Source: Rufibacter tibetensis
GTDB taxonomy: Bacteria > Bacteroidota > Bacteroidia > Cytophagales > Hymenobacteraceae
Direction: 5' to 3'
Assembly (NCBI RefSeq): GCF_001310085.1
Contig: NZ_CP012643.1
Location: 1,643,001-1,707,000 of the forward strand
Length of the DNA stretch: 64,000 nucleotides
The notes beneath the pieces were generated by a model. That model was not told where the DNA came from, made no database searches, and saw nothing but the letters and a program-made list of their open reading frames with translations. Positions within the stretch are counted from its first letter, which is position 1; each line of letters begins with the position of its first letter. The position numbers and the translations under genes were made by a program. Positions 26,121 through 45,814 of the stretch are shown here, in pieces.

Positions 26121-26151
26121 AAAGCAGGATCTTTGACATAGGTAACTACCC

Positions 26152-26193
26152 ATAAAAAGGGGTGCCCTCTTTCCAGAGGGCCCCCCTTTTTAT
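26152..26193 (+). terminator. Terminator after the redox operon
   Basis: A near-perfect stem (ATAAAAAGGGGTGCCCTCT with its complement at 26175-26193) with a TTCC loop ends in a T run, 32 bp after the OYE stop codon. Confidence 0.88.
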
Positions 26194-26245
26194 TTCAGCT
26201 TCTTTTCCTGATTTCAAGCAAGAAACGTAGTGCTTCACAATTGCA

Positions 26246-26402
26246 GATTCTCCCCTTGAGGGGAGCGTAGAGGGGTGTTTACACCTGCTGGTCCAATAAT
26301 GCTGAGTATATATTTATCTGTAGTAGATAAAGCATAATGTTATTCAGCAATACTTGTTCTCCTGTGTACACACCCCTCTGCGCTCCCCTCAAGGGGAGAA
26401 TC
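26246..26402. mobile_element. 157-bp gene-less derivative of the DUF559 element
   Basis: Two 39-bp inverted repeats (26246-26284 and 26364-26402, 37 of 39 positions identical) match the ends of the DUF559 element at 44604-45095. The left end continues inward with CTGC and the right end with AGGAGA, just as in the full element, so the polarity is kept. The 79-bp interior has no gene but holds a TTTATCT/AGATAAA hairpin. It behaves as a miniature, non-autonomous copy, an internal deletion or a primary miniature form. The flanks show no matching target duplication. Confidence 0.75.
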
Positions 26403-26417
26403 TCTTATATCAACTTC

Positions 26418-29048: not shown

Positions 29049-29328
29049 GAATTCCGGAAAAGAGTGGTTATGCGATCTAAATTCGGGAAAATATTCAACA
29101 TTTCGGTGCATTAGTAGAGAGTTTCCTTCCTAATTCATGCTCTTTTTGCGACAACTCTGCTTGTCTTCCTTTTGAGCCTGCTTTGGAAAAACTACGTCAA
29201 AACCACTTACCGAATTTTATCCTTTTATAAATTTTAGGTTCTTCTAGTCTGCATAAAGTAGTTGGTAAAGGCAGCTTTGACAACTTTGAATTACTTACAT
29301 ATGAAAAGTAAGCAGTATGCGCTCTCCT

Positions 29329-29367
29329 GTGTAAACACCCCTCTGCGCTCCCCTAAAGGGGAGAATC
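29329..29367 (-). repeat. Solo end of the DUF559 element
   Basis: The 39-bp block matches the inverted repeat of the element at 44604-45095 at 37 of 39 positions. The inner flank TCTCCT (at 29323-29328) marks it as a right-type end. No partner end lies within the adjacent gap. Confidence 0.75.
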
Positions 29368-29477
29368 TGCTCGTATAAGCTGCTTTATACGGGTATAAAT
29401 TCCAGATCTACCGTGCAGAAAGACCTACTCCAGTACTAATGAATATCAAACTTCTGTCACAGGAGACATAAATAAAG

Positions 29478-29515
29478 AAAGTCCCTCTTACCGCTAAGGG
29501 TAAGAGGGACTTTTA
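29478..29515. terminator. Terminator of the SulP/carbonic anhydrase/TetR operon
   Basis: A 15-bp perfect stem (AAAGTCCCTCTTACC with its complement) and a 6-nt loop. On the minus strand it is followed by a T-rich tail. It lies 56 bp after the TetR stop codon. Confidence 0.85.
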
Positions 29516-29570
29516 TAGAATAGAAATAAGAGGGAAAAAGCAGCTATCCTAGGAACACCACTTTGACTCT

Positions 29571-30251: not shown

Positions 30252-30264
30252 GGTGTAAGCTCCC

Positions 30265-30897: not shown

Positions 30898-30921
30898 GTT
30901 TTATTTAGTGATTAGTGGAAA

Positions 30922-32487: not shown

Positions 32488-32502
32488 AAGTCTTTAATAC
32501 CG

Positions 32503-32541
32503 TTTTAATGTTGATTAAAAGTGTTTTAATATTTATTAAAA
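32503..32541 (-). promoter_or_regulatory. Twin 18-bp palindromes upstream of the SulP operon
   Basis: TTTTAAT-N4-ATTAAAA occurs twice, at 32503-32520 and 32524-32541, with identical 7-bp arms, different 4-nt centres, and a 21-bp repeat period, two turns of the helix. The pair begins 16 bp upstream of the start codon, so a bound protein would block the promoter or the start region. The TetR-family gene at the end of the operon is the natural candidate to bind it. Confidence 0.65.
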
Positions 32542-32627
32542 GTAATACTATAGCTCACCAAAGTAAAACTATATACCCCAGATTTGCAAGGAAAGTTCCG
32601 CGTTAAGTGTAATTGAATAAGACCAAA

Positions 32628-32678
32628 AAGCAGAAATGCGGCTTACCTCTTTTAAAAGGATTGGCCGCATTTCTGCTT
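32628..32678. terminator. Hairpin downstream of the O-methyltransferase
   Basis: A 14-bp stem (AAGCAGAAATGCGGC near 32629-32642 with GCCGCATTTCTGCTT at 32664-32678) encloses a 21-nt loop that contains its own CTTTTAAAAG palindrome. It lies downstream of the methyltransferase stop on the minus strand and upstream of the SulP operator. Confidence 0.7.
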
Positions 32679-32755
32679 ACGATTTAACTGAAAATAGTTG
32701 GGATATAGGCAAGGGACCGAGAAAAAATCCCCACACTCCTACCTCTATTCTTGCC

Positions 32756-33763
32756 TTAAACCGGTACTGCCTCCAGAATAGAGACATCGGCAACCGTGGG
32801 AACCATACGAGCCAAGCGGAAGCCCGACTGTTCAAAAAGATGCTGGTATTCTGGCAAGCTGCGCTGTCTTCCTCCCAACAGGGCCAGCATATGAATGTCC
32901 AGCATCTTTGACCAGTGTGGCCCTTGGTCTGGCGAGATCAGTTGTTCTATCACCAACAGTTTGGCTCCCTCTGGTGCTGACTGCCGGATTGCTTTCAGAA
33001 TTTTCACGGCCTCCTCGTCTGCCCAATCATGGATGATTTCCATGAGCAGGTACCCGTCACAGGCAGGCAGTGGATCTTTGAAAAAGTTACCCGCTTGCAG
33101 CTCTAGGCGGTCAGAAGCCAATTCGCTTGCGTCTTCTACCACGTTGGGCAGATCAAACAAGATCCCTTTTGCATTTGGTGCCTTCTGCAGCACTGCGGCC
33201 AGCAAATGCCCCCTTCCGCCGCCTATATCACCTATGGTTTCAAAACCACTGAAGTCATAGGCAGCCATTACGCCCGCTGCTTGTCCAAAACTCTTGGAGG
33301 TCATAGCTGCATTAAATATTCTGTTCTCCTCTGCATGGGTGCCAAAGTAATCCCAGAGCCCTTCGGGAATGACCTTCTCAGCTGCCGGACGGCCCGTTTG
33401 CAGACTATGCTCCAACCCCTCAAAAATTTGCCAGAATACCGGCAACCCGAACATCTTGGCAAAAGCTTTTAAGGATTGTGGATGGTCCTGGCGTAAAAGA
33501 CGGGAGGCTGCTGAGTGCTTAAAAGCCCCTTCGTGAACTTCAAAAACACCATGGGCTGCCAAAAGCCGCATCATTCGCGCCAGCGCCTCTGGGTGCACCT
33601 GTAACTCAGCGGCCAGTTCTTCAGCGCTGCGTGGAGTTTCCTCCAAATGGTCGGCTAAACCTATGCCAGCTACTACGTGCAGGCAACGCGCTACACAGTA
33701 GCCGCCCGCCAGTTGTGCCAAAGTATCAAACGGATTAGAAGAAGTAGAAAGAGAAGCATCCAT
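32756..33763 (-). CDS. SAM-dependent O-methyltransferase (acetylserotonin/caffeate type)
   Basis: The 335-residue protein has an N-terminal winged-helix dimerisation domain (about residues 10-100, SAEELAAELQVHPEALARMMRLLAAHGVF) and a class I Rossmann methyltransferase domain with TIGDIGGGRGHLLAAVL (SAM loop) and the catalytic-His region MEIIHDWADEEAVKIL. The family methylates hydroxyls of small aromatic or polyketide products. No biosynthetic cluster surrounds it, so the substrate is open. It starts at the ATG at 33763 and is probably monocistronic, ending at the hairpin near 32650. Confidence 0.92.
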   Translation of the reverse strand: MDASLSTSSNPFDTLAQLAGGYCVARCLHVVAGIGLADHLEETPRSAEELAAELQVHPEALARMMRLLAAHGVFEVHEGAFKHSAASRLLRQDHPQSLKAFAKMFGLPVFWQIFEGLEHSLQTGRPAAEKVIPEGLWDYFGTHAEENRIFNAAMTSKSFGQAAGVMAAYDFSGFETIGDIGGGRGHLLAAVLQKAPNAKGILFDLPNVVEDASELASDRLELQAGNFFKDPLPACDGYLLMEIIHDWADEEAVKILKAIRQSAPEGAKLLVIEQLISPDQGPHWSKMLDIHMLALLGGRQRSLPEYQHLFEQSGFRLARMVPTVADVSILEAVPV

Positions 33764-34273
33764 GGTATAGCGTTTTAGAGGGAAACAAAATGCTTACCAA
33801 TCTCTCAGGAGAAGGCTTATTAAAGATACTATTTAATCTTATTTATTTAACATAGCTAACATATGAATATCATGATTTGAAGAGAGATTTGAAGGTATAT
33901 TATAGAAATAGGCTTTGAAACACTTGCCTGAAGAGGTGAAAGCCCAAACAAACGCTTTCATTCATTTCATTAAGTTAAAACTATCACTACCTTAGGGAGC
34001 TACTCGCCGTTATCTCCTGTTCCCCAAGCAGATAACCAGAACACTCTTCTGCGCTCACGCTTAAAGTACTTCCAGCTTTCTGTCCTTCATTACTCATGAA
34101 AAGAAGCAGATTTCAGGTATTCTTTTGGCCTTGGTCCCCTTGCTTACTTTTACCTCTCTTGGGCACAACACCTCCATCAAGGGAAAGACGCGCCTTTGCA
34201 CATCTCCTATCCCCTTCCAAGAAGGCAGATGCACCTCTTGTTATTTTTTCATTTCACCTAACCCAATACAGTC
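33764..34273. other. Intergenic gap between methyltransferase and S9 peptidase
   Basis: 510 bp between divergent genes. The left half is AT-rich and likely holds the methyltransferase promoter. The right half contains two overlapping short frames near 34096-34334 that together resemble a frameshifted signal peptide (MKRSRFQ in one frame, ALVPLLTFTSLG in another), which may be a relic but is too weak to call. Confidence 0.4.
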
Positions 34274-36304
34274 ATGCTTAGAACTACTCGCTTTCTTTTT
34301 GTCATGGTTTTGCTGCTGGGGTATTTGCCTCTAGCGGCGCAAACAAACAAGTTACCTGCGCTGATTGACCGGGAAATCTTCTTCGGGGACCCGGAAATTG
34401 TGAATGCCCAGATCTCGCCTGATGGTTCTTTTATTGCCTTCATTAAGCCTCACAAAGGCACCCGCAATATTTGGGTAAAGAAGCGCGAAGAACCCTTTAC
34501 TGCCGGCAAGCCCATGACCGCCGACACTACCCGCCCAATTATCAATTACTCCTGGTCCAGAGACGGGAAAACGCTGCTGTACGTGCAAGACAAAGGCGGC
34601 AATGAGAACTTCCATGTCTACGCGGTGCAGCCCTCCCAGAAGCTGGAGGCCGGACAAGAGGTACCCACCGCCCGCAACCTCACCAACGTACCCAATACCA
34701 GAGCCATGATTTACCTTGCTCCCCGGTCAGAACCCAACATCTTGTATGTAGGCCTGAACGAGCGCGACAAGGCCTGGCATGATTTGTACCGCCTGGATCT
34801 GGCCACCGGCGAAAAGACGCTGGTGCGCCAGAACACCGACCGCATTACCGGCTGGACCTTTGACTGGAACGATAAATTGCGCCTGGCCACCCGCTCCAAG
34901 CCAGACGGCAGCTCTGAGATTTTGCGGGTAGACGAGAAAGAACTACAGCCCATTTACAGCTCCACCATTTTTGAAACGAGTGTTCCAATAGGGTTTCACA
35001 AAGACAACAAGCGTTTCTACCTGAGAACCGATAAAGGCAACCGCAATCTACAACAACTGGTGCTGGTAGACCCGGTCACCCTAAAAGAAGAACTGGTAGA
35101 AACTGACCCTAAGAACCGAGTAGACGTGGGCCAGGTGCTCCTTTCCGAAGTGACCCGCGAGCCTATCTTTATCGCTTACCAGGATGATAAAATGCGCCGT
35201 ACCTGGAAAGACAAAACCTATGAAAAAGACTTCAGCACCATAGAGAAGAAGTTTCCGGGCCAAATGGTTCTCCTGGGTTCCTCCACCAAAGATGAGCAGT
35301 ACTGGATGGTGAATGTCCTCAGCGATGTAAACTCCGGAGAGGTGCACCTCTTTGACCGCAAAACCAAACAACTCACCTTTCAATACCGCCCCCAGCCTAA
35401 GCTACCGGTGAATGATCTGGCTACCATGCAGGTCATCCGTTACAAATCTTCTGATGGCCTGGAGATACCCGCCTACCTTACCTTGCCTAAGAACTCTTCA
35501 AGAAAAAATCTACCCTTAGTAGTAGTGCCGCACGGAGGTCCCTGGAGCCGTAACGTATGGGGCTTCAACAGCTATCACCAGTTTCTGGCTAACCGTGGAT
35601 ATGCGGTGCTATCGCCTAACTTCAGGGGCTCCACTGGTTTTGGGAAAGAATTCCTGAATGCGGGCAATAAAGAGTGGGGCCAGAAGATGCAGGATGATAT
35701 TACGTGGGGCGTAAAACACCTTATTGCGCAGGGCACCGTTGACCCTAAACGGGTAGGCATTATGGGAGGTTCCTATGGAGGCTACGCCACCCTGGCAGGA
35801 CTGGCCTTTACCCCTGACGTGTATGCCGCTGGCGTTTCCATTGTGGGTCCGTCTAACCTCAACACCTTGTTGAACACCATTCCGCCGTATTGGGAAGCTG
35901 AAAGGAAAAAGTTTGCGGAGCGCATGGGCGACTTGACTACCCCCGAAGGCAAAGAACAGCTCGCCCGCCAGTCACCGTTGAACTCCGCTGACAAGATCAA
36001 AGCACCGCTCATGGTAGTGCAGGGCGCCAATGACCCACGGGTCAACAAAGCCGAATCTGACCAGATTGTGATCGCCCTTCGCACCCGTGGCTTTCCGGTA
36101 GAATACCTGGTGGCCCCAGACGAAGGCCATGGTTTCGCCCGCCCCGTGAACAACATGGCCATGCTGGCCGCCGCCGAAAAATTCCTGGCCAAACACTTAG
36201 GCGGCCGCTACCAGGAATCTATGTCACCCGCTGTGGCCACGCGCTTGAAGGAGATCACCGTTGATGTGAAAACCGTAGCGCTTGCAGCACCCAAAAGCGA
36301 GTAA
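34274..36304 (+). CDS. Secreted S9-family prolyl oligopeptidase-like peptidase
   Basis: The 676-residue protein has a signal peptide (…LGYLPLAAQ), a beta-propeller domain (about residues 30-390, WSRDGKTLLYVQDKGGNENFHVYAV) and an alpha/beta-hydrolase domain with the triad S500 in GGSYGGYA, D587 in GANDPRV and H619 in EGHGF. The GGSYGG elbow marks dipeptidyl-peptidase/acylaminoacyl-peptidase relatives. It should act in the periplasm or at the cell surface on short peptides. It stands alone on its transcript. Confidence 0.93.
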   Translation: MLRTTRFLFVMVLLLGYLPLAAQTNKLPALIDREIFFGDPEIVNAQISPDGSFIAFIKPHKGTRNIWVKKREEPFTAGKPMTADTTRPIINYSWSRDGKTLLYVQDKGGNENFHVYAVQPSQKLEAGQEVPTARNLTNVPNTRAMIYLAPRSEPNILYVGLNERDKAWHDLYRLDLATGEKTLVRQNTDRITGWTFDWNDKLRLATRSKPDGSSEILRVDEKELQPIYSSTIFETSVPIGFHKDNKRFYLRTDKGNRNLQQLVLVDPVTLKEELVETDPKNRVDVGQVLLSEVTREPIFIAYQDDKMRRTWKDKTYEKDFSTIEKKFPGQMVLLGSSTKDEQYWMVNVLSDVNSGEVHLFDRKTKQLTFQYRPQPKLPVNDLATMQVIRYKSSDGLEIPAYLTLPKNSSRKNLPLVVVPHGGPWSRNVWGFNSYHQFLANRGYAVLSPNFRGSTGFGKEFLNAGNKEWGQKMQDDITWGVKHLIAQGTVDPKRVGIMGGSYGGYATLAGLAFTPDVYAAGVSIVGPSNLNTLLNTIPPYWEAERKKFAERMGDLTTPEGKEQLARQSPLNSADKIKAPLMVVQGANDPRVNKAESDQIVIALRTRGFPVEYLVAPDEGHGFARPVNNMAMLAAAEKFLAKHLGGRYQESMSPAVATRLKEITVDVKTVALAAPKSE

Positions 36305-36337
36305 AACAAACGGCTAAAGACTTTCAGTCTGCTTACT

Positions 36338-36418
36338 GCCCAGCTCAGGTTTTCTTCTGGCATGCTTTCCCAAATAGCTGGGCAAAGCACCGCCTTAGGA
36401 GAACCTGAGCTGTTTTTT
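36338..36418 (+). terminator. Terminator with two alternative hairpins
   Basis: CAGCTCAGGTT (from 36341) can pair with AACCTGAGCTG (to 36412), which is followed by six T, making a terminator with a long loop. Alternatively GCCCAGCT (36338-36345) can pair with AGCTGGGC (36376-36383). The two pairings exclude each other. It lies 34 bp after the S9 stop codon. Confidence 0.65.
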
Positions 36419-36664
36419 ATTCCTTCTAAGCCAATGATGCTTGTTGAAGTATGATCATTGAGACGTATTTCTACCTCTATTTTACTGCGACTGGTTGTGC
36501 AAAATCATCACCGAGTAATGTGACGCTCATCGGAAACCTTGCCCATCAGCATGCCGTGAACCCTACCTGAAGGAGCCAGGCTTTAGGTCTGTTTTCCAGA
36601 AAATCGAATCAAAACCCACTAACTCTAAGAAAAAACAGACGCCCGTCATAGTGGTAACCTGTTT

Positions 36665-36700
36665 CTGGGCTGTCTTGCAGAAAACGGGGCTAAAACAGGA
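36665..36700 (+). repeat. Dispersed TAAAAC motif, well-preserved copy
   Basis: GGCTGTCTTGCAGAAAACG, GGGC, TAAAACAGG: one of the best matches to the consensus described in the findings. Confidence 0.45.
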
Positions 36701-36766
36701 GAAGCAAAAAAGCGGGTAGTCTTGCCAGAAGCTTACGCATCGCGGCACTTCCGCTTTCTTCTTAGG

Positions 36767-36786
36767 ACCCTTGTCCAGACAAGGGT
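36767..36786. promoter_or_regulatory. 20-bp palindrome upstream of the membrane protein
   Basis: ACCCTTGTC-CA-GACAAGGGT has perfect 9-bp arms and lies about 110 bp upstream of 36897. It has no T run, so it looks more like an operator than a terminator. No dedicated regulator is adjacent. Confidence 0.4.
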
Positions 36787-36896
36787 ATTTCACCTCCGTT
36801 TTGGTACACGTCAGGCAAAACTCCTTTTCGCTTTATTCCAGGTGTACCCTTCGCTTTAAGGTTGAATTTCATTTCTGATTCATAAAACTGCAGGTG

Positions 36897-37331
36897 ATGC
36901 AATTGAAAGCACTTTTCACAAACTGGACCAAGGTAGCAGGTTTGCTGCTCATGGCAGGCGCGCTGGCCTGGACCATAAAATTGGGGGTGATCATCTCCAC
37001 CAATGGCAGAATCATAGATACCGGAGCCGCGGCCTTTCTCATGAAAGCAGGCATCCTATTGCTGGTGGCAGGGTCCACCGGAATAGGTCACCGGTTAAGT
37101 CTTCATCAACCCGTTTGGGTCAAGGTGCTTGCGATCATTCTTTCAACGGTGGTTGTTTTCGGCTTGTTTCTGCTGTTTGCGAAAGTCGCTTCTTCCCTCC
37201 TGGTGGCACCCTTGCTGGAAGGCAGTAACATCTGGTATGCGCAGCAGGAGGCACCCATCGGCATGGCCGTGTTCTTTTTCCTGATTGTGGGGTTCCTGCT
37301 TTACAGAAGCTACAGATCAGTTGCCCGTTAG
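36897..37331 (+). CDS. Small integral membrane protein, unrecognised
   Basis: From the ATG at 36897 (36894 also possible) the protein has 144 residues with four hydrophobic helices (GLLLMAGALAWTIKLGVII; AAFLMKAGILLLVAGSTGIG; VWVKVLAIILSTVVVFGLFLLFAKV; IGMAVFFFLIVGFLLYRS). The end is basic (RSYRSVAR), which suggests a cytoplasmic C-terminus. No known family was recognised. It precedes the broken cytochrome gene by 67 bp on the same strand. Confidence 0.72.
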   Translation: MQLKALFTNWTKVAGLLLMAGALAWTIKLGVIISTNGRIIDTGAAAFLMKAGILLLVAGSTGIGHRLSLHQPVWVKVLAIILSTVVVFGLFLLFAKVASSLLVAPLLEGSNIWYAQQEAPIGMAVFFFLIVGFLLYRSYRSVAR

Positions 37332-37398
37332 TCTTTCTCTTTTTCCTTAATACCCTGTTTCCTTCGTCATTTTTTTAAGCTAAATCTATAAAACTATC

Positions 37399-37980
37399 AT
37401 GTTCCGTAAAATCTTGAAGTGGACAGCCCTTGTCTTGGTTCTTCTTCTTAGTGGGATAGCGGTTGCTACCATGTTCCGGCAGCACCTGACCTATGAAGCC
37501 CCTTACCCTAATGTGAAGACCTCCACAGATCTGGCCATGATAGAGAAAGGCAAGCACATTGTCATGGTAGAAAAAGCCTGCGTATAGTGCCATAGCTCTG
37601 CGCTGAACATAGAGGTGCTGAAGAAGGGCGAAGAGCCTTCCCTGGTCGGAAACAAAAAAGTGGAGACACCCTTCGGCACCATTTTCACCACCAACCTCAC
37701 CCCTGACCCCAAGACCGGAATAGGCAAAATGACCGATGCGGAGATTGCCCGTGTCTTGCGCTACGGAGTAAAACCAAACGGCGAGGCAGTACTTCCTTTC
37801 ATGCAGGGACAGGACATGAGCGACGAAGACCTGGTAGCCGTCATTTCCTATCTCAGATCCATCAAACCAATCGAGAACAAAGTGCCGGACCACGAGTTCA
37901 CCCTGCTGGGGAAATTTGCCAGAGCCTTTATGCTGAAGCCTGCTGCTCCTGAACCAACCGAAAGCCTGGCCAGGAAATAA
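37399..37980 (+). pseudogene. Cytochrome c gene with an amber codon inside its haem motif
   Basis: The frame encodes an N-terminal membrane anchor (MFRKILKWTALVLVLLLSG) and the start of a class I cytochrome c, but the haem motif reads A-C61-V-stop-C-H: a TAG at 37585-37587 replaces the second x of CxxCH. The frame then stays open for 131 codons to 37980 with normal cytochrome features (FTTNLTPDPKTGIGKMTDAEIARVLRYGVKPNGEAVLPFM; the Met ligand region is QGQDMSDEDLVAVISYLR). A single base change (e.g. from CAG or TAT) explains it. The anchor resembles that of the di-haem cytochrome at 57569-58447. A very recent nonsense mutation or a sequencing error is likely; readthrough cannot be excluded. 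Confidence 0.8.
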
Positions 37981-38063
37981 TAAGGGCTGGCCACAAACTT
38001 CAGGGATACACGGTCCTGAAAAGCCGGGCCGAGCCAAGGAAATTAAATAGAGTGTAGAGCATA

Positions 38064-38110
38064 CACAAAAGCCAAAGCCTCTGCCAAAAGCCGAGGCTTT
38101 GGCTTTTGTG
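38064..38110. terminator. Terminator-like hairpin after the cytochrome pseudogene
   Basis: An 18-bp stem (CACAAAAGCCAAAGCCTC with its complement at 38093-38110) and an 11-nt loop lies 84 bp after the pseudogene's final stop. A/T ends on both arms give bidirectional potential. Confidence 0.75.
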
Positions 38111-38198
38111 GGTATATTACTTCCCGTTTTCTGCTGAGAATAGCCCTGCCTGGGCTGTAGCTTCTTTAGACCCGTTTACCAAATTGAAATCACTTCAT

Positions 38199-39245
38199 AT
38201 GCCATCCCTTCTCCGCACCCTGCTGCTTTTCTGCTGCCTTCTTTATAGCCTGGCAGGGCGGGCACAAACCACGCAGGGAATCATTGAACCTGAGCCGGTG
38301 GGTGGCACGGTAGATCTGGCGCTGGTGTACTATAAGATCAACTTCACTCAGGAACAGCGGCAGTACCTGACGGAGAAATCCATTGAGTTAATTTTTCCCA
38401 TCAGTGCAGAGGGGAAAGCTAAGCTGGAGAAGATAAACGGCGTCACTGATCCCGTGATTCTGGACAGTCTGGTGCAAGCATCTGCCCGGGTGCCGCGCTT
38501 TCGGCCCAAAGAGGTGAATGGAGTAAAACAAGCGGCGGTATACTTCTATCCCTTGCGCTACCCCGCCTACGGCGGAACCAGGCCCATCTCCAGATTTGAC
38601 GAGATGTACCGGTACCATACGGCCAAGCTGGAAGATCTTGAGCACGTTCACCTTTCGGGCAAGCGCCTGGAAATAGTATTTGGCTTTATGGCCAACTCGT
38701 TCTACGGGAAAGCCGCCGAGTACCTGGAGGCAGGCGGAGGCATGAAAGTGGAACTGCAGTATGTAGGCAAGAAAGGCATAGGCAGTGGCCTGATCATGGA
38801 CTTCTATGGCAATAACTTAAAGAAGCCCTACCCCATTGCCTCTACCCGCGAACAGAACAGCGGCCCACCTACGCTCCTGGTAGGCATGGGGCTCAACAAA
38901 GCCCTGGTACGAAAGGAAAGAAAGGAGTTGTTCGTGCAGGCGGAACTGGCGTTGGCCTTCCATAACGTGACTCCGCGCCAGGGCGATACGGATGAAGAGT
39001 ACACCCAGTTTATTGGCGGAGGTCCCGGACTGGTGGCCCATTACCTGCTGCAGGTAGGCAAATCTAAACCTAGTGCTTCCTACGGCACGCCCGCGTTGTC
39101 TAAGCACTACGTGAACCTGCACGCGGGCCTCCGGTCTTTGTACTACTCCCAACGCGAAGCCTCCGGCCTGATGGTGGAAGCTGGTATCTCCTACCGGTTC
39201 GGCACCCACATGGTAGACAGCTATCAGTGGAAACAGAAGCCGTGA
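38199..39245 (+). CDS. Secreted protein of unknown function, possible TonB-C-like domain
   Basis: From the ATG at 38199 the protein has 348 residues with a signal peptide (MPSLLRTLLLFCCLLYSLAGRAQ). The part SIELIFPISAEGKAKLEKIN … VPRFRPKEVNGVKQAAVYFYPLRYPAYG resembles the energy-transducer/TonB C-terminal fold. The second half alternates hydrophobic and polar residues and includes LEIVFGFMANSFYG and GLMVEAGISYRFG, which look like beta-barrel strands. It could be a small outer-membrane or periplasmic protein. The frame is open to 38106 but only the shorter form has a signal peptide. A truncated copy of its C-terminus lies at 40613-40725. Confidence 0.75.
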   Translation: MPSLLRTLLLFCCLLYSLAGRAQTTQGIIEPEPVGGTVDLALVYYKINFTQEQRQYLTEKSIELIFPISAEGKAKLEKINGVTDPVILDSLVQASARVPRFRPKEVNGVKQAAVYFYPLRYPAYGGTRPISRFDEMYRYHTAKLEDLEHVHLSGKRLEIVFGFMANSFYGKAAEYLEAGGGMKVELQYVGKKGIGSGLIMDFYGNNLKKPYPIASTREQNSGPPTLLVGMGLNKALVRKERKELFVQAELALAFHNVTPRQGDTDEEYTQFIGGGPGLVAHYLLQVGKSKPSASYGTPALSKHYVNLHAGLRSLYYSQREASGLMVEAGISYRFGTHMVDSYQWKQKP

Positions 39246-39260
39246 GGAATCATCAAAAAA

Positions 39261-39302
39261 ATCGTTTTGCACCTGTTTCCTGAAAACGAGGCGTAAAACG
39301 AT
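39261..39302 (+). repeat. Dispersed TAAAAC motif inside an outer inverted repeat
   Basis: The motif copy CACCTGTTTCCTGAAAACGA, GGCGTAAAACG is enclosed by AAAATCGTTTT (39257-39267) and AAAACGATTTT (39296-39306), an additional inverted repeat. The whole unit starts 12 bp after the preceding stop codon, so it may act as a terminator. Confidence 0.5.
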
Positions 39303-39496
39303 TTTGTGAGTTAAGGCAGGACGTAACAAGAAGGCTACTTTTCTGAAAGAGCCTGAGCGCCTCTCTTTACCTCTCCTACTTCAGAAAACTGGAGGCTAAG
39401 TTGGCTTTCCTGGGCATCTGTTTACCTTCCTGTACAAACATAAGCAAGAGGATCTGGGTTAAAGGAAATATCCATTCACCTAAACCGGTCTGTAAG

Positions 39497-40408
39497 ATGC
39501 AAGAAACTACTACCTCCATCGGAAATTTATCTTCTGGTTTACTGCGGGTAGCTGAGGAATATTGGGAGAGGTTCCTTTTCCTGTTGCCTAATATCATCCT
39601 CGCTATTCTGATCTTGTTTGTGGCTTTGTGGCTAGCAGCTAGAATAAGGCTCCTGCTGGAATCAAGGTTAGACAAGAAGTCACATAACCAGATTACCACC
39701 CGGTATATTGCCATGATTGCCAAATGGGCGATTACGCTTTTAGGGCTGATGCTGGTGCTGCATACCTTAGGTTTAAGTGGCGTAGCCGGTGGGATCTTTG
39801 CTGGGGCGGGGGTTTCGGCACTGGTGGTGGGCTTTGCTTTCAAAGACATTGCCGAGAACTTTTTGGCCGGACTTATCCTGGCCTTCAATCGTCCCTTTGA
39901 GGTAAATGACTCTATCTCTGTGAATGACTTGACCGGCAAGGTGCTGGATCTGAGCCTGAGAACCACCCACATCAGGACCTTTGACAGCAAGGACATTTTT
40001 ATCCCCAATGGCACCATCCTAAACTCCTCCGTCACCAACCTCACCTACAACGGACTCATCAGGATGGATTTTGTGGTGGGCATAGATTACAACGACAACA
40101 TACAAGATGCCATTGACCTGATTGAGAAAACGACGTTAGGCATTGATGGGGTGTATAGAGAAGACCCTCCTTATGCACTGGTGGAGGAACTGGCCACCAA
40201 CACGGTCAACATCAAAGTATTTTTCTGGGTAGAAACGGATGATTACAAGAAAGGAGCTCTTCTCTTAAGAGGCAGAATGATGCAGGAAACCGCCAAAGCC
40301 CTGCTGGGAAATGGTTTCGGGTTACCAGCCAACATCCAGGAATTGAAACTATATGACTACCAGAAGTCTATTCCGGTACAGATGATGCAACCCGCCGAGG
40401 AGCAGTAA
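39497..40408 (+). CDS. MscS-type mechanosensitive channel
   Basis: From the ATG at 39497 the protein has 303 residues. Three N-terminal helices (LPNIILAILILFVALWLAARI; YIAMIAKWAITLLGLMLVLHTLG; the pore helix GVAGGIFAGAGVSALVVGFAFKDIAENFLAGLILAFNRPFEVND) are followed by the beta domain (GKVLDLSLRTTHIRTFDSKDIFIPNGTILNSSVTNLT) and an alpha/beta C-terminal vestibule. It opens under membrane tension to release osmolytes. The frame is open to 39401, but those residues are unlike the family. The terminator lies at 40501-40540. Confidence 0.92.
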   Translation: MQETTTSIGNLSSGLLRVAEEYWERFLFLLPNIILAILILFVALWLAARIRLLLESRLDKKSHNQITTRYIAMIAKWAITLLGLMLVLHTLGLSGVAGGIFAGAGVSALVVGFAFKDIAENFLAGLILAFNRPFEVNDSISVNDLTGKVLDLSLRTTHIRTFDSKDIFIPNGTILNSSVTNLTYNGLIRMDFVVGIDYNDNIQDAIDLIEKTTLGIDGVYREDPPYALVEELATNTVNIKVFFWVETDDYKKGALLLRGRMMQETAKALLGNGFGLPANIQELKLYDYQKSIPVQMMQPAEEQ

Positions 40409-40500
40409 TCTTTTTTTAAAGGTCCTCTCAGCTTTCTCTTAAAGCCGGTAAACTCACCAAAACCAATTGACGGAAGAGAAGTTGTTTTGTACTTACTTTC

Positions 40501-40540
40501 ACAAAAAGAGCCCGAAAAAATATTTTCGGGCTCCTTTTGT
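40501..40540. terminator. Terminator after the MscS gene
   Basis: ACAAAAAGAGCCCGAAAA pairs with TTTTCGGGCTCCTTTTGT around a short loop, with A and T runs at the base, about 93 bp after the stop codon. Confidence 0.88.
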
Positions 40541-40612
40541 TTTGGCGCAATGTAGAAGAACTTGGCTGCACTATTTTTTAGGTGAGCTTCAATACAGAGG
40601 AAATTAAATATG

Positions 40613-40725
40613 ACCTTCCATAACGTGGCTCCGCTCACTCCTACCGCGAAACCTCCGGCCTAATGGCCGAAGCCGGCATCTCCTACTGTTTCGGCGCACC
40701 CACATGGTGGAAACAAAAGCAGTAG
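40613..40725 (+). pseudogene. Truncated paralogue of the 38199-39245 gene
   Basis: The stretch CTTCCATAACGTGGCTCCGC matches 38957-38976 with one change, and then, after a deletion, HSYRETSGLMAEAGISYCFG followed by APTWWKQKQ and a TAG repeats the C-terminus of the upstream protein (SQREASGLMVEAGISYRFG … WKQKP). The intervening coding part is lost and there is no start. It looks like a partial tandem duplication that decayed, and lies in the gap between a terminator and the DUF1016 gene. Confidence 0.75.
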
Positions 40726-40910
40726 AGAGTTGAAAGCCCGTCTGCATTGGCCTTGTTGATAGATGCCTCCGCATAGATTGATCATCCACATATGGATATA
40801 TTTTTAACCCTGAATAGAAAATGTAACTTGCTAATCAACTAGTGAATGGGTGAGACGGTTAATGAAAACTTGCTGCTTATTTACTTTCTAAAACTGCGCG
40901 AAGAAGCGGA

Positions 40911-41909
40911 ATGAAAGAGTTGGAACCATACAATGGATTAATTAAGCAAATTGGCGAGTTGCTCCAAGCCGGGCGTGCACAGGCGGGACGGGCCATCAAT
41001 ACCATTCTGGTGCAGACCTATTGGCAGATTGGCAAGCACATTGTAGAATTTGAGCAGGGCGGAAAAGCGAAAGCTGAATACGGTTCTGAGTTGTTAGACC
41101 GACTTTCCAAAGACCTGACCTTTGCATTCGGAAAAGGCTTTAGCCGATCAAACTTGGTTTACATGCGGAAGTTCTACATGGCCTTTCCAAATAGTGAGAC
41201 GCTGTCTCACCAATTAAGCTGGAGCCACTACTTTGAAATTCTGAAAGCTGACAACAACCTTGAAATCAGTTTTTATGCAAAGCAATGCGAAAAAGAAAAC
41301 TGGAGCGTGCGCGAGCTGAAACGCCAGATGAAAAGCATGCTGTTTCACCGGGTAGCTTTAAGCAAAGACAAAACGGGTGTTTTGCAAATTGCCGAACAAG
41401 GTGCCGATATCCAAAAGCCTGCTGATATCATCAAAGACCCATACGTATTTGAGTTCTTGGGCATTCCGCAGCAGTACCAGTACAAAGAAGACGAACTGGA
41501 AGAAAAGCTAATCCGAAATTTAGAGGAATTTCTGTTGGAGTTGGGCAAAGGCTTTGCTTTCATTGGCCGCCAATATAAAATCAGTCTGGCTAACCGGCAT
41601 TTCTTTGTGGACCTGGTTTTTTACCACCGCATTCTCAAATGTTTTGTCTTGATAGACCTGAAGCGCGGCGAAATAGAACACAACGACATCGGGCAGATGA
41701 ACCTGTACCTGAACTACTTCGCCAAGGAAGAAAACGTGGAGGGCGACAATCCACCCATCGGGATTGTATTAGGCGCTTACAAAGACCACATTTTAGTAGA
41801 ATACGCCACAGAAAACATCAGCAACCAGCTTTTTGTAAGCAAATACCAACTCTACCTCCCCGATAAAGCTTTGCTTTCAGCGGAACTTGAAAAATTGTTA
41901 GAAGGATAG
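40911..41909 (+). CDS. DUF1016/YhcG-type PD-(D/E)XK nuclease
   Basis: The 332-residue protein has the DUF1016 N-terminal domain (TYWQIGKHIVEFEQGGKAKAEYGSELLDRLSKDLT … LSWSHYFEILK) and a YhcG PD-(D/E)XK nuclease fold with D234 (HFFVDLVFYH) and D249-x-K251 (LIDLKRG). The family is spread by horizontal transfer, often in defence islands and among type I restriction and toxin genes; no direct role is proved. The gene stands alone, after a truncated paralogue and before a cassette, in the most accessory part of the window. Confidence 0.92.
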   Translation: MKELEPYNGLIKQIGELLQAGRAQAGRAINTILVQTYWQIGKHIVEFEQGGKAKAEYGSELLDRLSKDLTFAFGKGFSRSNLVYMRKFYMAFPNSETLSHQLSWSHYFEILKADNNLEISFYAKQCEKENWSVRELKRQMKSMLFHRVALSKDKTGVLQIAEQGADIQKPADIIKDPYVFEFLGIPQQYQYKEDELEEKLIRNLEEFLLELGKGFAFIGRQYKISLANRHFFVDLVFYHRILKCFVLIDLKRGEIEHNDIGQMNLYLNYFAKEENVEGDNPPIGIVLGAYKDHILVEYATENISNQLFVSKYQLYLPDKALLSAELEKLLEG

Positions 41910-42060
41910 TAGTAAATCAATCCTTTATTGGCCAATTATACTTCAACCACATACTATGTTTGTTAACCCGACTCCAGTTATTAGTCATTTTTGGTTGTAA
42001 ACAGGATGTTTTACTCTATTCATGGTGCCAATAACCGGAACAGTTCCTTATACACAGTAG

Positions 42061-42882
42061 TTGGGCGTAATAGATATATTTATGAAAGGGAACTACATTC
42101 ATTTAATCTTGCTGCTTTTCCTCTGTTCTTCCTGTTGGCAAGAGGATTTTGATTCCTTAAATGAGGAATGCACCTCTGGCTGTACAGTCATCAGCGGTAA
42201 GTTTACCACTAAAACCAATGAACCAGTGGCGAACATCCCTGTTGGTTTAAGGTTCGAGAATAAAGGAACCTTTGGAATGACTTCAAGCACCAGGCACATA
42301 GCCTCTACGAAGACAGACGCAAACGGTAATTATTATATAAAGTTCAGGTTGAGGGACCGTGAATTCGGGGATTCCGCCAGTAAATATGGAGGCCATGTCC
42401 TGCTAAACTTCTCCTTTGACAAACAGAAGTTTTTGGAAATTCCTTGGTACAACATTAGCGAGGGAGACGAATTAATAGGTTCAATTTCCAAAAGGGATAC
42501 AACGATAGTAACGGACTTCCACATAGCCACCAGAACAAAAATCAGGATAAGGTTGAAAGGCTATTCTACACCTGTTCCTAACGACCACTTCTCAATTATT
42601 ACAACTTGCGCTGTTGGTGCTAATAAAACAGAAACATCTGGCGGCTTTATTGAAGCCAGTGGCATCAACACGGAAAAGGAAGTCGATGCCTGCGGAAACC
42701 AATTGACTACCTTATATATCAGGAAAAAGAAGAACGGGATTTATACTCTTAAAGACACTGCAGTTTATGCTCCTGTTGGACAAATTACGGCAGTAGAGTT
42801 TACCTATTAAAACTACTACGCCCAACATTGTGCATAAGCCATGCTACGGCCGACGGCCTTGCACGCCTCATGCACGTGACCG
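42061..42882 (+). mobile_element. Second lone integron-like gene cassette
   Basis: The left boundary is GTTGGGC at 42060-42066 (R' half-site, GTTRRRY). The right side is an attC-like imperfect palindrome (42820-42888) whose R'' half-site GCCCAAC is exactly complementary to the left R'. This match between the 5' junction and the cassette's own R'' is what integron cassettes show, since R' of the circle becomes the 5' end. The single gene begins 22 bp inside. The downstream R' reads GTTGACC, as if supplied by the flank. No integrase was seen. Confidence 0.55.
42082..42810 (+). CDS. Lipoprotein with carboxypeptidase-regulatory-like domain
   Basis: From the ATG at 42082 the 242-residue protein has a lipoprotein signal (MKGNYIHLILLLFLCSSC, likely acylated at C18). 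A beta-sandwich follows, in the style of the Bacteroidota CarboxypepD_reg-like domain: SGKFTTKTNEPVANIPVGLRF … TKTDANGNYYIKFRL. Further Cys (CTSGCTV) may pair. The second half is beta-rich and unassigned. Composition is more AT-rich than in the neighbouring genes. It is the sole gene of the second attC-like cassette. The frame opens at a TTG at 42061 inside the boundary, which is not a likely start. Confidence 0.72.
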   Translation: MKGNYIHLILLLFLCSSCWQEDFDSLNEECTSGCTVISGKFTTKTNEPVANIPVGLRFENKGTFGMTSSTRHIASTKTDANGNYYIKFRLRDREFGDSASKYGGHVLLNFSFDKQKFLEIPWYNISEGDELIGSISKRDTTIVTDFHIATRTKIRIRLKGYSTPVPNDHFSIITTCAVGANKTETSGGFIEASGINTEKEVDACGNQLTTLYIRKKKNGIYTLKDTAVYAPVGQITAVEFTY

Positions 42883-42888
42883 TTGACC
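42820..42888 (+). repeat. attC-like recombination site 2
   Basis: R'' GCCCAAC (42820-42826), 3-nt spacer, L'' GTGCAT (42830-42835), an imperfect hairpin with GGCCGACGGCC at its tip, L' ATGCAC (42870-42875), 6-nt spacer, R' GTTGACC (42882-42888). The inner arms continue as an imperfect stem (GTGCAT-AAG-C against its partner). The site begins 9 bp after the stop codon of the gene. Confidence 0.58.
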
Positions 42889-42910
42889 ATAACAATCTCA
42901 AATTCTCCCT

Positions 42911-43492
42911 ATGCACTCCTCCCTCTTTACTTATATCACCCAGTACACCAAAACCACGCTCACCGAGGAGGAGCAGAAATTGATTCAAGGCGCCTTCCAC
43001 CCGAAGAAGCTGCGTAAGAAGCAGTACCTGCTGCAGGAGGGAAATATTTGCCGCTACCTGGGGTTTGTGGTGCGCGGGGCCATGCGGCAGTACAGCATAG
43101 ATGACAAAGGCGCCGAGCACATTGTACAGCTGGCGGTAGAGAACTGGTGGGTGGGCGACCGGGAAAGCTATCTCATGCTCACCCCCTCTTTGTACAACAT
43201 TGATGCCTGGGAAGACATCGAGGTCCTGCTCATTGAAAAAGCTGATCTGCTGAACCTTTACCAGCAGGTACCCGCCCTGACCCAGATGGCCCGGCAGATG
43301 GATGATCGGCATTCCATGGCCACCCAGCGCAGAATCAATGCTGCCATCAGCTTCTCAGCGGAGAAACGCTATGCCGAGTTTGTAGACTGCCACCCCGAAT
43401 TCCTGCAGCGCTTTCCGCAGCACCTCATTGCCTCGTACCTGGGCATCACCAAAGAAACCCTCAGCCGCATCCGGAAGCAACAGGCGCTTTAA
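42911..43492 (+). CDS. Crp/Fnr-family transcriptional regulator
   Basis: The 193-residue protein has a cNMP-binding-like barrel (FHPKKLRKKQYLLQEGNICRYLGFVVRGAMRQYS … VGDRESYLMLTPSLYNIDAWEDIEVLLI) and a C-terminal winged helix (FPQHLIASYLGITKETLSRIRKQQ). The canonical arginine of cAMP sites is missing, as in most Bacteroidota members, so the signal is unknown. It starts 22 bp after the attC-like site and lies upstream of the pirin gene, with a palindromic Fnr-like site in the gap. It likely controls pirin and possibly itself. Confidence 0.92.
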   Translation: MHSSLFTYITQYTKTTLTEEEQKLIQGAFHPKKLRKKQYLLQEGNICRYLGFVVRGAMRQYSIDDKGAEHIVQLAVENWWVGDRESYLMLTPSLYNIDAWEDIEVLLIEKADLLNLYQQVPALTQMARQMDDRHSMATQRRINAAISFSAEKRYAEFVDCHPEFLQRFPQHLIASYLGITKETLSRIRKQQAL

Positions 43493-43517
43493 GGCAACTC
43501 GCCCCCCACTCCAGTTT

Positions 43518-43533
43518 GTTGACATTTGTCAAC
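43518..43533 (+). promoter_or_regulatory. Fnr/Crp-like palindromic operator upstream of pirin
   Basis: GTTGACATTTGTCAAC has 7-bp perfect arms and contains TTGAC-N4-GTCAA, the layout of Crp/Fnr operators (compare TTGAT-N4-ATCAA for Fnr). It lies 25 bp after the regulator gene's stop codon and 110 bp before the pirin start, and the adjacent gene encodes a Crp/Fnr protein. Confidence 0.7.
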
Positions 43534-43557
43534 GGTTTATTTTATCCTACATCATCG

Positions 43558-43586
43558 TTTGGCGGCGGGTCTTTGCCGCACCTTTG
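43558..43586 (+). promoter_or_regulatory. Possible Bacteroidota promoter of the pirin gene
   Basis: TTTG at 43558-43561 and CACCTTTG at 43579-43586 are 17 bp apart, close to the TTTG/TAnnTTTG promoter of this phylum although the TA is CA here. The operator lies about 25 bp upstream, a position that suits activation. Confidence 0.4.
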
Positions 43587-43643
43587 TATCGTTCGGAAGG
43601 GGAAAATAGCAAGTCCTTCTACCACCCTTAAAACGATACAGCC

Positions 43644-44519
43644 ATGAAAAAAGAAGTAAGTTTCTCTACCAGAGGCCAACGCGCCGACATAGGTGATTTA
43701 ACCATCTACCGCGTTGTGCCTAACCGCTACGCCCAGGCCGTCGGTCCCTTCGTGTTCCTGGACCACATCGCGCCCAAAGTTCACGCCGCCGATGCGCCCC
43801 GCATGAAAACCGGCACCGGTGCCCACCCGCACAGAGGCATTGCCACCCTCACCTATTTGCTGCAGGGCGAAGACGAGCATTTTGATAGCGCCGGACACCA
43901 CGCCAAAGTCACCTCGGGCGGCATCCAGTGGATGAAAGCGGGAAACGGCGTCATCCATGACGAGAACCTGAACCCCGACCCTGAGGATGATAGCCGCACC
44001 ACGCATGGCCTGCAGTTCTGGGTAAACCTTCCGTCCAAAAACAAAGCCGAAGCGCCGGAATACCTCGCCATCCAGGCAGAAAACGTGCCGCAGAAAACCC
44101 TGGACCAGAACCGGGGCTGGGTAAAGGTAGTGGCCGGACGCTACGAGGAGCTGACTTCCCAGATCCCGAGCTATTCTGAGCAGTTCATCTACCACCTGCA
44201 CCTGGAAGCGGGCCAGACATTCGCCCTGGACACCACGCCCGGCCTGGAGTACGCCGCCTTCTTGCTGGAAAGCAATTCGGTGCTCAATGACACGCCCTAC
44301 CACGCCGGCGAGTTCCTGGAATTTGACCGCCACGAAGGCACCATTGAACTGACCAACCCGTCTGCCGACGCCATCGACATCATCTTCTTCGGCGGCGAAC
44401 GCTACCAGGAACCCATTGTGGCAGAAGGTCCCTTCGTGATGAATTCCAAAGCCGAAATCGCCGAAGCCTACCGCGACTTCTTCAAAGGCAAGTACGGCCA
44501 GATTGTGTACCCTAACTAG
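43644..44519 (+). CDS. Pirin-family protein
   Basis: The 291-residue bicupin has the iron-binding signature of pirins: H61 and H63 in GAHPHRGIATLTYLL, then H105 and E107 in GVIHDENL. The second cupin is FALDTTPGLEYAAFLLESN and it ends with the pirin C-terminal FFGGERYQEPIVAEGPFVMN. Bacterial pirins have been described as quercetinases or redox-responsive regulators of enzymes; which applies here is unknown. It follows a Crp/Fnr gene on the same strand, with a palindrome between, so oxygen or redox control is plausible. Confidence 0.93.
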   Translation: MKKEVSFSTRGQRADIGDLTIYRVVPNRYAQAVGPFVFLDHIAPKVHAADAPRMKTGTGAHPHRGIATLTYLLQGEDEHFDSAGHHAKVTSGGIQWMKAGNGVIHDENLNPDPEDDSRTTHGLQFWVNLPSKNKAEAPEYLAIQAENVPQKTLDQNRGWVKVVAGRYEELTSQIPSYSEQFIYHLHLEAGQTFALDTTPGLEYAAFLLESNSVLNDTPYHAGEFLEFDRHEGTIELTNPSADAIDIIFFGGERYQEPIVAEGPFVMNSKAEIAEAYRDFFKGKYGQIVYPN

Positions 44520-44603
44520 GATATTGAGACTACTTGGAAGATCTCACACCTGTCATCCTGAAAGCAACTTGTGGGCGAACGGTAGTAGCGGTTCATGAAA
44601 GCA

Positions 44604-44642
44604 GATTCTCCCCTTGAGGGGAGCGAAGAGGGGTGTTTACAC
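44604..44642 (+). repeat. Left inverted repeat of the DUF559 element
   Basis: Begins GATTCTCCCC at the outer edge and ends GTTTACAC at the inner edge; the inner flank CTGC is shared with the left end at 26246-26284. Confidence 0.85.
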
Positions 44643-44673
44643 CTGCAGAACACGCATTTCGTAAACATTCCTG

Positions 44674-45045
44674 ATGCCCAACAAGATCATTCCATACCGC
44701 CCAGACCTCCGAGACAAGGCAAAGCACCTCCGCAAAAACAGCACGCTAGCGGAGGTGCTACTCTGGGAGGAGATCAAGAACGGCAAGTTAGGAGTCCAGT
44801 TTCACAGGCAAGTACCTATGCTCAACTACATTGTTGATTTCTACAGCCATGAATTGCAGCTAGCCATTGAAGTAGATGGCGATAGCCATGATGAAAAGGT
44901 GGTATATGACCATCAAAGAGAGCAGGAGTTAAAAGCCTATGGCGTGGAGTTCCTTAGGTTTCAGGATTTAGATGTCAAGAGAAACATCAGGTATGTGGTG
45001 GACAAAATATTCCACTGGATTGAAGAATATAAGAGTCAGCGATAA
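44674..45045 (+). CDS. DUF559 (Vsr-like) endonuclease-domain protein
   Basis: The 123-residue protein is nearly all DUF559: ARLRKNST-like HLRKNSTLAEVLLWEEIKN (E27), FHRQVPMLNYIVDFY (H44, D55), the catalytic-type strand LAIEVDGDSHD (E66, D68, H72) and VEFLRFQDLDVKRNI at the end. This is a minimal PD-(D/E)XK/Vsr-type fold. DUF559 proteins are very common in Bacteroidota, usually as single short genes; their role is not established. Here the gene is enclosed between inverted repeats and would be the only candidate for mobilising them. The start at 44674 is 32 bp inside the left repeat. Confidence 0.93.
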   Translation: MPNKIIPYRPDLRDKAKHLRKNSTLAEVLLWEEIKNGKLGVQFHRQVPMLNYIVDFYSHELQLAIEVDGDSHDEKVVYDHQREQELKAYGVEFLRFQDLDVKRNIRYVVDKIFHWIEEYKSQR

Positions 45046-45056
45046 ATAGCTCTCCT

Positions 45057-45095
45057 GTGTAAACACCCCTCTTCGCTCCCCTCAAGGGGAGAATC
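45057..45095 (-). repeat. Right inverted repeat of the DUF559 element
   Basis: Reverse complement of the left repeat without mismatch; 12 bp separate it from the DUF559 stop codon. The inner flank TCTCCT is shared with copies at 29329 and 26364. Confidence 0.85.
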
Positions 45096-45214
45096 AGCAC
45101 ACGGAAGCGTCTTTTCAAATGAGGACTGTTTACAGCCTATTTTTAGCATAACAGTCTAAAACAAACAACCTCACTTATCTACTAATCAATAAGAATTTAA
45201 TAAAACCAGAAAAC

Positions 45215-45814
45215 ATGACAAGCATAGGAATCATAGGAGCCGGAAAAATAGGAAAAGCGTTTGCGCAGCACGCAGCCAAAGCGGGGTATGACACCATCAT
45301 CAGCAATAGCCGTGGGCCTGAATCTTTGCAGCCGGTGGTGGAAGCCATTGGCCACGGCATCAAAGCCGGAACGGTAACCGAAGCCGCTGCTGCAGACATT
45401 GTGTTTCTGGCCGTGCCCTGGAACAAACTGGAAGAGGCCGTTTCTGGGGTGCCGAGTTGGGAGAACCATCTGGTGATAGACGCCACCAATGCGGTGTTGC
45501 CCGGCTTTGTGCCTGCAGACCTAGGTGGTAAGCCTTCCTCTGAAGTAGTAGCGTCTTTGTTGCCCGGGGCAAAATTAGTGAAAGCGTTCAATACGTTGCT
45601 GGCGGCAGTATTGACAGCTGACCCCAAAGAAGAAGGGGGTAGCCGCGTGGTCTTCTATTCCGGGAATGATGAGGAAGCGAAAAAGAGGGTGCTGGACGTG
45701 ATCAACCGCATCGGGTTTTCGGGAGTAGACTTAGGCAAACTAGACGAGGGCGGACGCTTACAGCAATTCCCCGGCGGTCCGTTGCCTGCGCTTAATCTAA
45801 TCAAATTGAAGTAG
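45215..45814 (+). CDS. F420-dependent-type NADP reductase (Rossmann dinucleotide binder)
   Basis: The 199-residue protein begins MTSIGIIGAGKIGKAFAQHAAKAGYD, a GxGxxG nucleotide fold with S32-N-S-R (phosphate contact). It continues with DIVFLAVPWNKLEEAV, HLVIDATNAVLPGF, KLVKAFNTLLAAVL and GFSGVDLGKLDEGGRLQQFPGGPLPALNLIK at the end. This is the pattern of the NPD/F420H2:NADP oxidoreductase family, which in Bacteroidota must use another flavin or substrate because F420 is not made there. It is probably monocistronic; a terminator shared with the convergent SDR gene follows. Confidence 0.9.
   Translation: MTSIGIIGAGKIGKAFAQHAAKAGYDTIISNSRGPESLQPVVEAIGHGIKAGTVTEAAAADIVFLAVPWNKLEEAVSGVPSWENHLVIDATNAVLPGFVPADLGGKPSSEVVASLLPGAKLVKAFNTLLAAVLTADPKEEGGSRVVFYSGNDEEAKKRVLDVINRIGFSGVDLGKLDEGGRLQQFPGGPLPALNLIKLK

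Follow-up and report, generated by a model that had tools for sequence, protein, structure and literature searches.

The analysed window, a stretch of 64,000 nucleotides from Rufibacter tibetensis, contained a stand-alone, intergenic gene for a DUF559 nuclease enclosed by inverted repeats that were identical over 39 bp (44604-44642 vs 45057-45095; Table 1), as had been claimed in the original prediction. With the outer bases included, the arms extended over 44601-44642 and 45057-45098 (42 nt at 98% identity). Each arm contained the CTCCCC-TTGA-GGGGAG hairpin expected from the prediction, and both ends were built on the same plan, namely a hairpin X-loop-X', a tag in which X' recurs (CTCCCC TTGA GGGGAG ... 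GAGGGG TG), and then GTGTTTACAC. Just inside this common part the two ends were unlike, reading ACACCTGC in the end referred to as B and ACACAGGAG in the end referred to as A. In single-stranded DNA folding, the hairpin stem was formed, and the whole ends folded not unusually well (z -1.0 to -1.6). The gene-less pair and the solo end that had been placed in the same window were also present. In total, 11 strand-wise matches to the hairpin were found in the window at no more than 3 mismatches, against a chance mean of 0.70, and as many were reached in 0 of 100 shuffles.

Table 1. Features of the DUF559 locus and related palindromic ends in the window.
Feature	Position	Strand	Description
B-type end	44601..44650	+	Outer GCAGATTC; hairpin 44608-44623; tag GAGGGGTG at 44628-44635, a copy of the 3' strand of the stem; TTTACACCTGC
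DUF559 (Vsr-like PD-(D/E)XK) nuclease, 123 aa	44674..45045	+	Assigned by profile match, conserved residues and fold
A-type end	45050..45098	-	Inward-reading GTGTTTACACAGGAGAGC; hairpin 45076-45091; outer GATTC
Gene-less B-A pair, same hairpin family	26244..26403	.	Hairpins 26250-26265 and 26383-26398
Solo A-type end	about 29322..29367	-	CTCCCC hairpin family

The single enclosed gene was of the predicted length, and its product matched DUF559 (E=2e-29), the only other match being a related nuclease family below the cut-off. No Y1 gene was located between the hairpins, in agreement with the proposed PD-(D/E)XK-type nuclease in place of a Y1 transposase. Among 41 aligned rows, E27, D55, and E66 were invariant and D68 was nearly invariant; we take these residues to be catalytic from the PD-(D/E)XK pattern. 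The predicted structure (pLDDT 91) was closest in a fold search to 3HRL (E=2.7e-7) and 3R3P (1.6e-4), with Vsr (1VSR) in tenth place (E 0.07), and a profile search of the PDB gave 3HRL (4e-28) and 3R3P (4.8e-5). NGO0050 (3HRL), which is titled a putative endonuclease-like protein, and Escherichia coli Vsr (1VSR) have the same fold as DUF559. Among the PADLOC defence families, two weak matches over part of the domain were obtained (best 1.3e-5). The median pN/pS was 0.17 for 11 Rufibacter copies (55 pairs), and the median dN/dS was 0.06, with usable dS in only 11 of the 55 pairs; judged by these ratios, DUF559 is under purifying selection.

The original prediction had called for a search of the complete genome for the arm and a count of its copies. 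In the 5.41-Mb genome, a 23-bp arm gave 40 matches at up to 3 mismatches, and its reversed control gave 0. These matches were sorted into 27 places: 7 had a lone end, 19 an inverted pair with no gene, and the remaining one was the DUF559 pair, whose 39-bp arms enclose the sole DUF559 gene of the genome. Twelve of the 19 gene-less pairs were 157-168 bp long, and some had a degraded or variant second hairpin. When the 20 pairs of this genome were typed, 17 were A-B, 2 were scored as B-B, and 1 was unclassified. Variant ends were seen at three loci (L025, L030, L036), where the loop and one strand of the stem had given way to a longer GC-rich insert.

AGCA was indeed present on both outer flanks of the DUF559 pair, as the prediction had noted, but its interpretation as a 4-bp target duplication was rejected, because GCA belongs to the arm consensus and flush direct repeats of at least 4 bp occurred in 1 of the 20 pairs, near the 0.53 expected from re-paired flanks. 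Flush repeats of at least 3 bp occurred in 3 of the 20 pairs against 0.88 expected, with 3.7% of shuffles reaching as many, and a 3-bp target duplication is weakly hinted at by these flanks. At these frequencies (1/20 and 3/20), the pairs did not show the target-site duplication of classical IS and MITE elements (DDE), and the complete copy lacked a transposase gene, its ORF matching DUF559 and the sub-cut-off nuclease family.

A total of 36 DUF559 genes were found in the 16 Rufibacter genomes, of which G004 had none. At seven loci (L054, L059, L060, L061, L063, L065, and L070; L138 and L060 are one locus), homology to the window was confined to the segment from 44598-44605 through 45095-45100. 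Three copies with shortened arms (L049, L057, L064) matched the window only from 44626-44631 to 45061-45066, and the C-type loci L053 and L071 matched it from 44604-44607 to 45092-45094 at 67-69%. Among the eight complete A-type copies, including that of the window, no flank was common to any of the 27 pairs compared between genomes; the three copies with shortened arms occupied one common locus (3/3 pairs). The B end was upstream and the A end downstream of the gene in 7 of the 8 copies as scored by script, and in the eighth (L060) the upstream end was read by eye as ACACCTGC, that is, B. Comparison of these loci showed that the element occurs as a unit at unrelated sites, and it would have moved as one. 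One chromosomal place was occupied by a D-type DUF559 in two species (L045, L056) and by a CTCCCC-type one in three others (L049, L057, L064).

Nine N-clade genes without enclosing arms were found at one common locus (36/36 pairs), and two relatives of these genes within C-type arms were at another locus than those nine (0/18). DUF559 might be a nuclease serving the host or its repair, either in palindrome control or in the manner of Vsr, a T:G mismatch nickase, and the repeats might be binding sites or regulators rather than transport ends. An N clade that stays in place next to a C-type pair and the purifying selection would fit such a role, as would the proposal, made in PMC12907096, that a Caulobacter DUF559 protein (VsrA) is a mismatch-repair enzyme. 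However, complete units of constant polarity found at sites that are unrelated, together with the in-frame copies in unrelated genes described below, make this explanation very unlikely.

A comparison with empty sites had also been called for in the prediction, and the window's site was found without the element in five relatives (G002, G004, G007, G010, G012), where both neighbour genes were adjacent and DUF559 was absent. The gap between the neighbours was 31 bp in G002 and 127-128 bp in G007 and G010; G012 carried a C-type gene-less pair there, and G004 a decayed 24-nt palindrome. For another gene-less pair, the intergenic region was 78-111 bp in G002, G007, and G013 vs 271 bp in the genome of the window, other relatives having longer unrelated DNA at this site, and for a third a decayed copy was in place in G012. 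Base-exact junctions were sought at the window site, at three gene-less pairs, one of them that of the window, and at a lone palindrome and metH; none was readable, because the flanks of the relatives were too diverged. Aligned blocks of the relatives were about 70-89% identical (73-93% between G007 and G010) with scrambled intergenic DNA, and the left flank of the window's gene-less pair was alignable in 0 of 9 relatives. The 24-nt palindrome of G004 only suggests an excision footprint in which two hairpins were fused; two lone copies in the genome of the window (L033, L035) were also palindromes shaped like two fused hairpins, although slipped replication would give the same palindromes.

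The prediction had left in doubt whether DUF559 genes elsewhere accompany such repeats. A total of 66 named DUF559 loci were found by protein similarity, of which 64 were testable for arms. In a motif-free test, inverted arms with a score of at least 20 surrounded DUF559 in 36 of the 64 loci, compared with 3 of 2198 control positions obtained by sliding along these loci; the score was below 20 in the other 28, and these scores undercount one-sided arrangements and take in a few palindromes from outside the families (L108, L131). Of the 66 loci, 60 had a family hairpin no more than 500 bp from DUF559 and 41 had one on both sides, and hairpin density was 2.23/kb near DUF559 vs 0.024/kb beyond 1 kb (~93-fold), as counted for four families at no more than 1 mismatch with motifs picked after seeing the same loci. 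Within Rufibacter, a hairpin was found near 27 of 36 DUF559 loci, vs 0 of 14 metH loci and 0 of 30 Y1-transposase loci (30 of the 45 found, three of which look IS200-type rather than RAYT). The hairpin and tag were oriented outward or inward, depending on the family. In G021, the sole two B-type hairpin matches (at most 1 mismatch) were 434 bp apart at the DUF559 locus, and in G025 the sole B-type matches, on the two sides of DUF559, were 449 bp apart; two Pontibacter genomes had 18 and 31 B-type matches. The hairpins are multi-copy in the genus, and an abundant repeat could happen to flank a DUF559 gene by coincidence, but this explanation was rejected as having a negligible probability in view of the motif-free arms, the enrichment with its motifs chosen afterwards, and the sole matches of G021 and G025.

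In a sample drawn evenly over the phylum, DUF559 was present in 33 of 61 genomes. Among the 43 examined of the 70 matches listed, arms scored at least 18 in 17 and below 18 in 26, the control for a score of at least 18 being 6 of 2198 positions. In a plasmid collection, 10 of 30 DUF559 matches were inspected; enclosing palindromes were found at two Deinococcus loci and one Pseudanabaena locus, arm scores were weak at the Picosynechococcus and Neisseria loci, and enclosing palindromes were absent at two Synechocystis loci and those of Sphingomonas, Sinorhizobium, and Methylobacterium. The E. coli DUF559 gene ycjD had no enclosing palindromes. Cyanobacterial plasmid DUF559 genes (L210, L212, L215) adjoined PglX-, DUF1156- or DUF499-type genes.

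The type of arm was compared with the phylogeny of the nuclease in a 104-row DUF559 tree, built from 121 columns and with fuzzy arm labels (L209, L211, and L214 were mislabelled A), in which 8 type changes were needed for the 59 rows whose arm type was recognised. With all eight groups, including no-arm and other, 28 changes were needed against a shuffled mean of 58.3, and 0 of 200 shuffles were as low; some of the rows are near-copies, since five loci of the named set appear again, for the same genomes, among the genus loci (L060/L138 and L071/L076 as duplicates, and L049/L075, L057/L074, and L064/L073 by near-zero branches). Inside one genus, a single DUF559 clade accompanied each of the A-, D-, E-, and F-type arms, and two accompanied the C-type arms. 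In addition, across DUF559 loci, 141 of 205 arms had stem and tag G-runs of the same length (75.5 on average and at most 98 in shuffles), as had 37 of 62 when each distinct stem was counted once (shuffled mean 19.5, maximum 33). As shown by comparison of arms and tree, DUF559 clades keep their own palindrome types.

A Y1 transposase was found in 15 of the 16 Rufibacter genomes, and the ends might be moved in trans by RAYT or another transposase, with DUF559 as a passenger. The genome of the window harbored a single RAYT-like gene with its own distinct REPs (CTGGCGCGAGC..GCTCGTGTCCGCACGC; L032 / G000:C1:187026-187253). These REPs have an inner CACGCATTNCTGAT in common with the A and C arms (CTCCCC and CCCCCTTTG families), so that cross-talk is possible. 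Strand-wise CTCCCC matches fell into three overlapping ranges: 47, 10, 33, 23, 13, 65, and 20 where a complete A-type DUF559 was present (seven genomes); 5, 12, and 18 where the DUF559 had shortened arms (three genomes); and 6, 11, 44, 9, 25, and 5 where there was neither (six genomes). By these counts, CTCCCC copies persist, or move, without a matching DUF559 in cis or in trans, which would suit a passenger. Nevertheless, the passenger explanation is unlikely: the RAYT of the genome has different REPs, 0 of 30 Y1 loci had A-D type hairpins nearby, and arm type follows DUF559 clade. Further, G013 contained 25 CTCCCC matches with no Y1 match, its sole DUF559 being of the N clade. RAYT as the sole mover was disfavoured by its distinct REPs, the Y1 loci, and G013.

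DUF559 was also found in frame within host genes. In G009, G011, and G014 it lay in the metH linker that precedes the B12 domain, flanked in 2 of the 3 by the palindrome-derived peptides PHPQPLSHGEG ... PSPRERGQGG; metH was without the insertion in 13 of 16 Rufibacter. In the phylum sample, in-frame DUF559 was identified in metH (L291), M23 peptidase (L296), hsdR (L287), hsdM (L289), an MmeI-like methylase (L286), and leuS (L285 and L297, and L315 at another place). Several of the in-frame loci, among which L038-L040 are counted, had palindrome-derived peptides on both sides; the arms of L285 and L040 were weak. In a quick tree, the DUF559 domains of metH, leuS, and M23 formed one branch (SH-aLRT 96), and the metH domain of the distant genome grouped with that of M23 (94), from which it appears that DUF559 probably entered metH more than once. 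Palindromic elements of Rickettsia are similarly inserted in frame in coding genes, although to our knowledge they carry no nuclease gene.

The recurrence of in-frame insertions in conserved genes, with the same metH linker hit in two families of bacteria, would also be expected from homing-type spread, in which DUF559 cuts element-free targets, the element is copied into the cut by homologous repair, and the arms are left over from the cut site or protect it. In line with this, the nuclease is detectably homologous in its catalytic domain to I-Bth0305I (3R3P), a Vsr-like EDxHD homing endonuclease. PMC9403480, where it deals with inteins, assigns a Thermosynechococcus DUF559 gene to the EDxHD homing endonucleases. 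I-Bth0305I, however, is a mobile-intron protein, whereas palindromic ends and dispersed gene-less derivatives were found here. The gene-less pairs at many unrelated sites are beyond the reach of homology-directed homing, and no Rfam family, introns included, was detected at the gathering threshold in 26100-45300, the ORF being a stand-alone intergenic one. We regard homing as somewhat unlikely.

The explanation we prefer, and hold to be reasonably likely, is that the locus is a small polar REPIN/MITE-like element of ~0.5 kb (B-end, duf559, A-end) with gene-less B-A derivatives, for which the Vsr/DUF559 nuclease would serve as the enzyme. This is supported by the unit-wise homology, the non-orthologous sites (0/27 common flanks), the fixed polarity, the element-free sites, the matching of arms and clades, and the enrichment specific to DUF559 (60/66 loci), which bear out the original idea of a DUF559 gene within mobile palindromic ends of REP/RAYT-like layout. 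We infer that DUF559 is the mover of the ends. It would recognise the hairpin-plus-tag ends, as a cruciform or as single-stranded DNA at the replication fork, and cut at or near them, and host repair would then join the segment, whether excised or copied, to DNA at another place. We know of no strand-transfer chemistry in PD-(D/E)XK nucleases, and joining must therefore come from elsewhere. Some gene-carrying forms stay put beside a gene-less pair, like RAYTs. Several observations count against this explanation: the CTCCCC hairpins in genomes lacking a matching DUF559, the many DUF559 genes without enclosing arms, the orientation of hairpin and tag that varies among families, the two clades found with C-type arms, the wide presence of Y1 transposases and the CACGCATTNCTGAT common to REPs and arms, the flanks too diverged for base-exact junctions, and the mismatch-repair proposal for the Caulobacter protein.

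REPIN/RAYT systems, as described in PMC3116915, are similar in having dispersed inverted palindromic doublets (here 19 gene-less pairs and the DUF559 pair among 27 places), a matching enzyme gene beside or between them, and a repeat type that co-varies with the enzyme. Their enzyme is a Y1 HUH transposase, whereas a DUF559/Vsr PD-(D/E)XK nuclease is enclosed here, with none of these hairpins within 500 bp at the 30 Y1 loci; moreover, gene-carrying units are located at different sites, and this genome also encodes a separate RAYT, which has REPs of its own. Hairpins are shared with IS200/IS605, but a Y1 TnpA between subterminal hairpins is absent. TIRYT elements (Di Nocera et al. 2013, PMC3733652) also have a gene flanked by inverted repeats, of which some contain a GGGGWSAS motif resembling the tags; the gene encodes a tyrosine transposase, and the words DUF and Vsr are absent from the main text of that paper. 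The abstract of the same paper describes CGTC REPs as being without a dedicated transposase (PMC3733652). No paper linking DUF559 to palindromic repeats was present among the matches listed (titles and starts of abstracts, most subscription papers lying outside), and none with both DUF559 and 'inverted repeats' was present in the literature searched. A role of DUF559 in moving its own ends, which the prediction did not know to be described, was likewise not found described in that literature.

It is fairly probable that single-domain DUF559/Vsr nucleases drive a widespread and undescribed class of mobile elements in Bacteroidota, Cyanobacteriota, and Deinococcota, characterised by clade-specific hairpin-plus-tag ends and gene-less derivatives, with one clade that inserts in frame in housekeeping genes (metH, leuS, M23). 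If so, palindromic repeats without a known mover would gain an enzyme of another superfamily, and DUF559 would gain a biological role. A nuclease without strand-transfer chemistry would then spread DNA, which is testable with the 123-aa protein and a 160-bp substrate, and the translated-repeat peptides and nuclease domains in methionine synthase and leucyl-tRNA synthetase would be explained.

Other repeats were observed near the CTCCCC ends. Four of these ends (window 44552-44600; L334, L335, L336) adjoined another repeat, TGTCATCCTGAAAGGATCTTGTGGGCGAAC..., at a spacing of 22-24 nt as counted by eye, which hints that another palindromic repeat may be preferred as a target. A stretch of ~75 bp at ~42805-42885 of the window recurred with 85-97% identity at many sites of the genus. 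In G007, a CTCCCC pair was nested within a CCCCCTTTG pair (L189, about 4134-4535).
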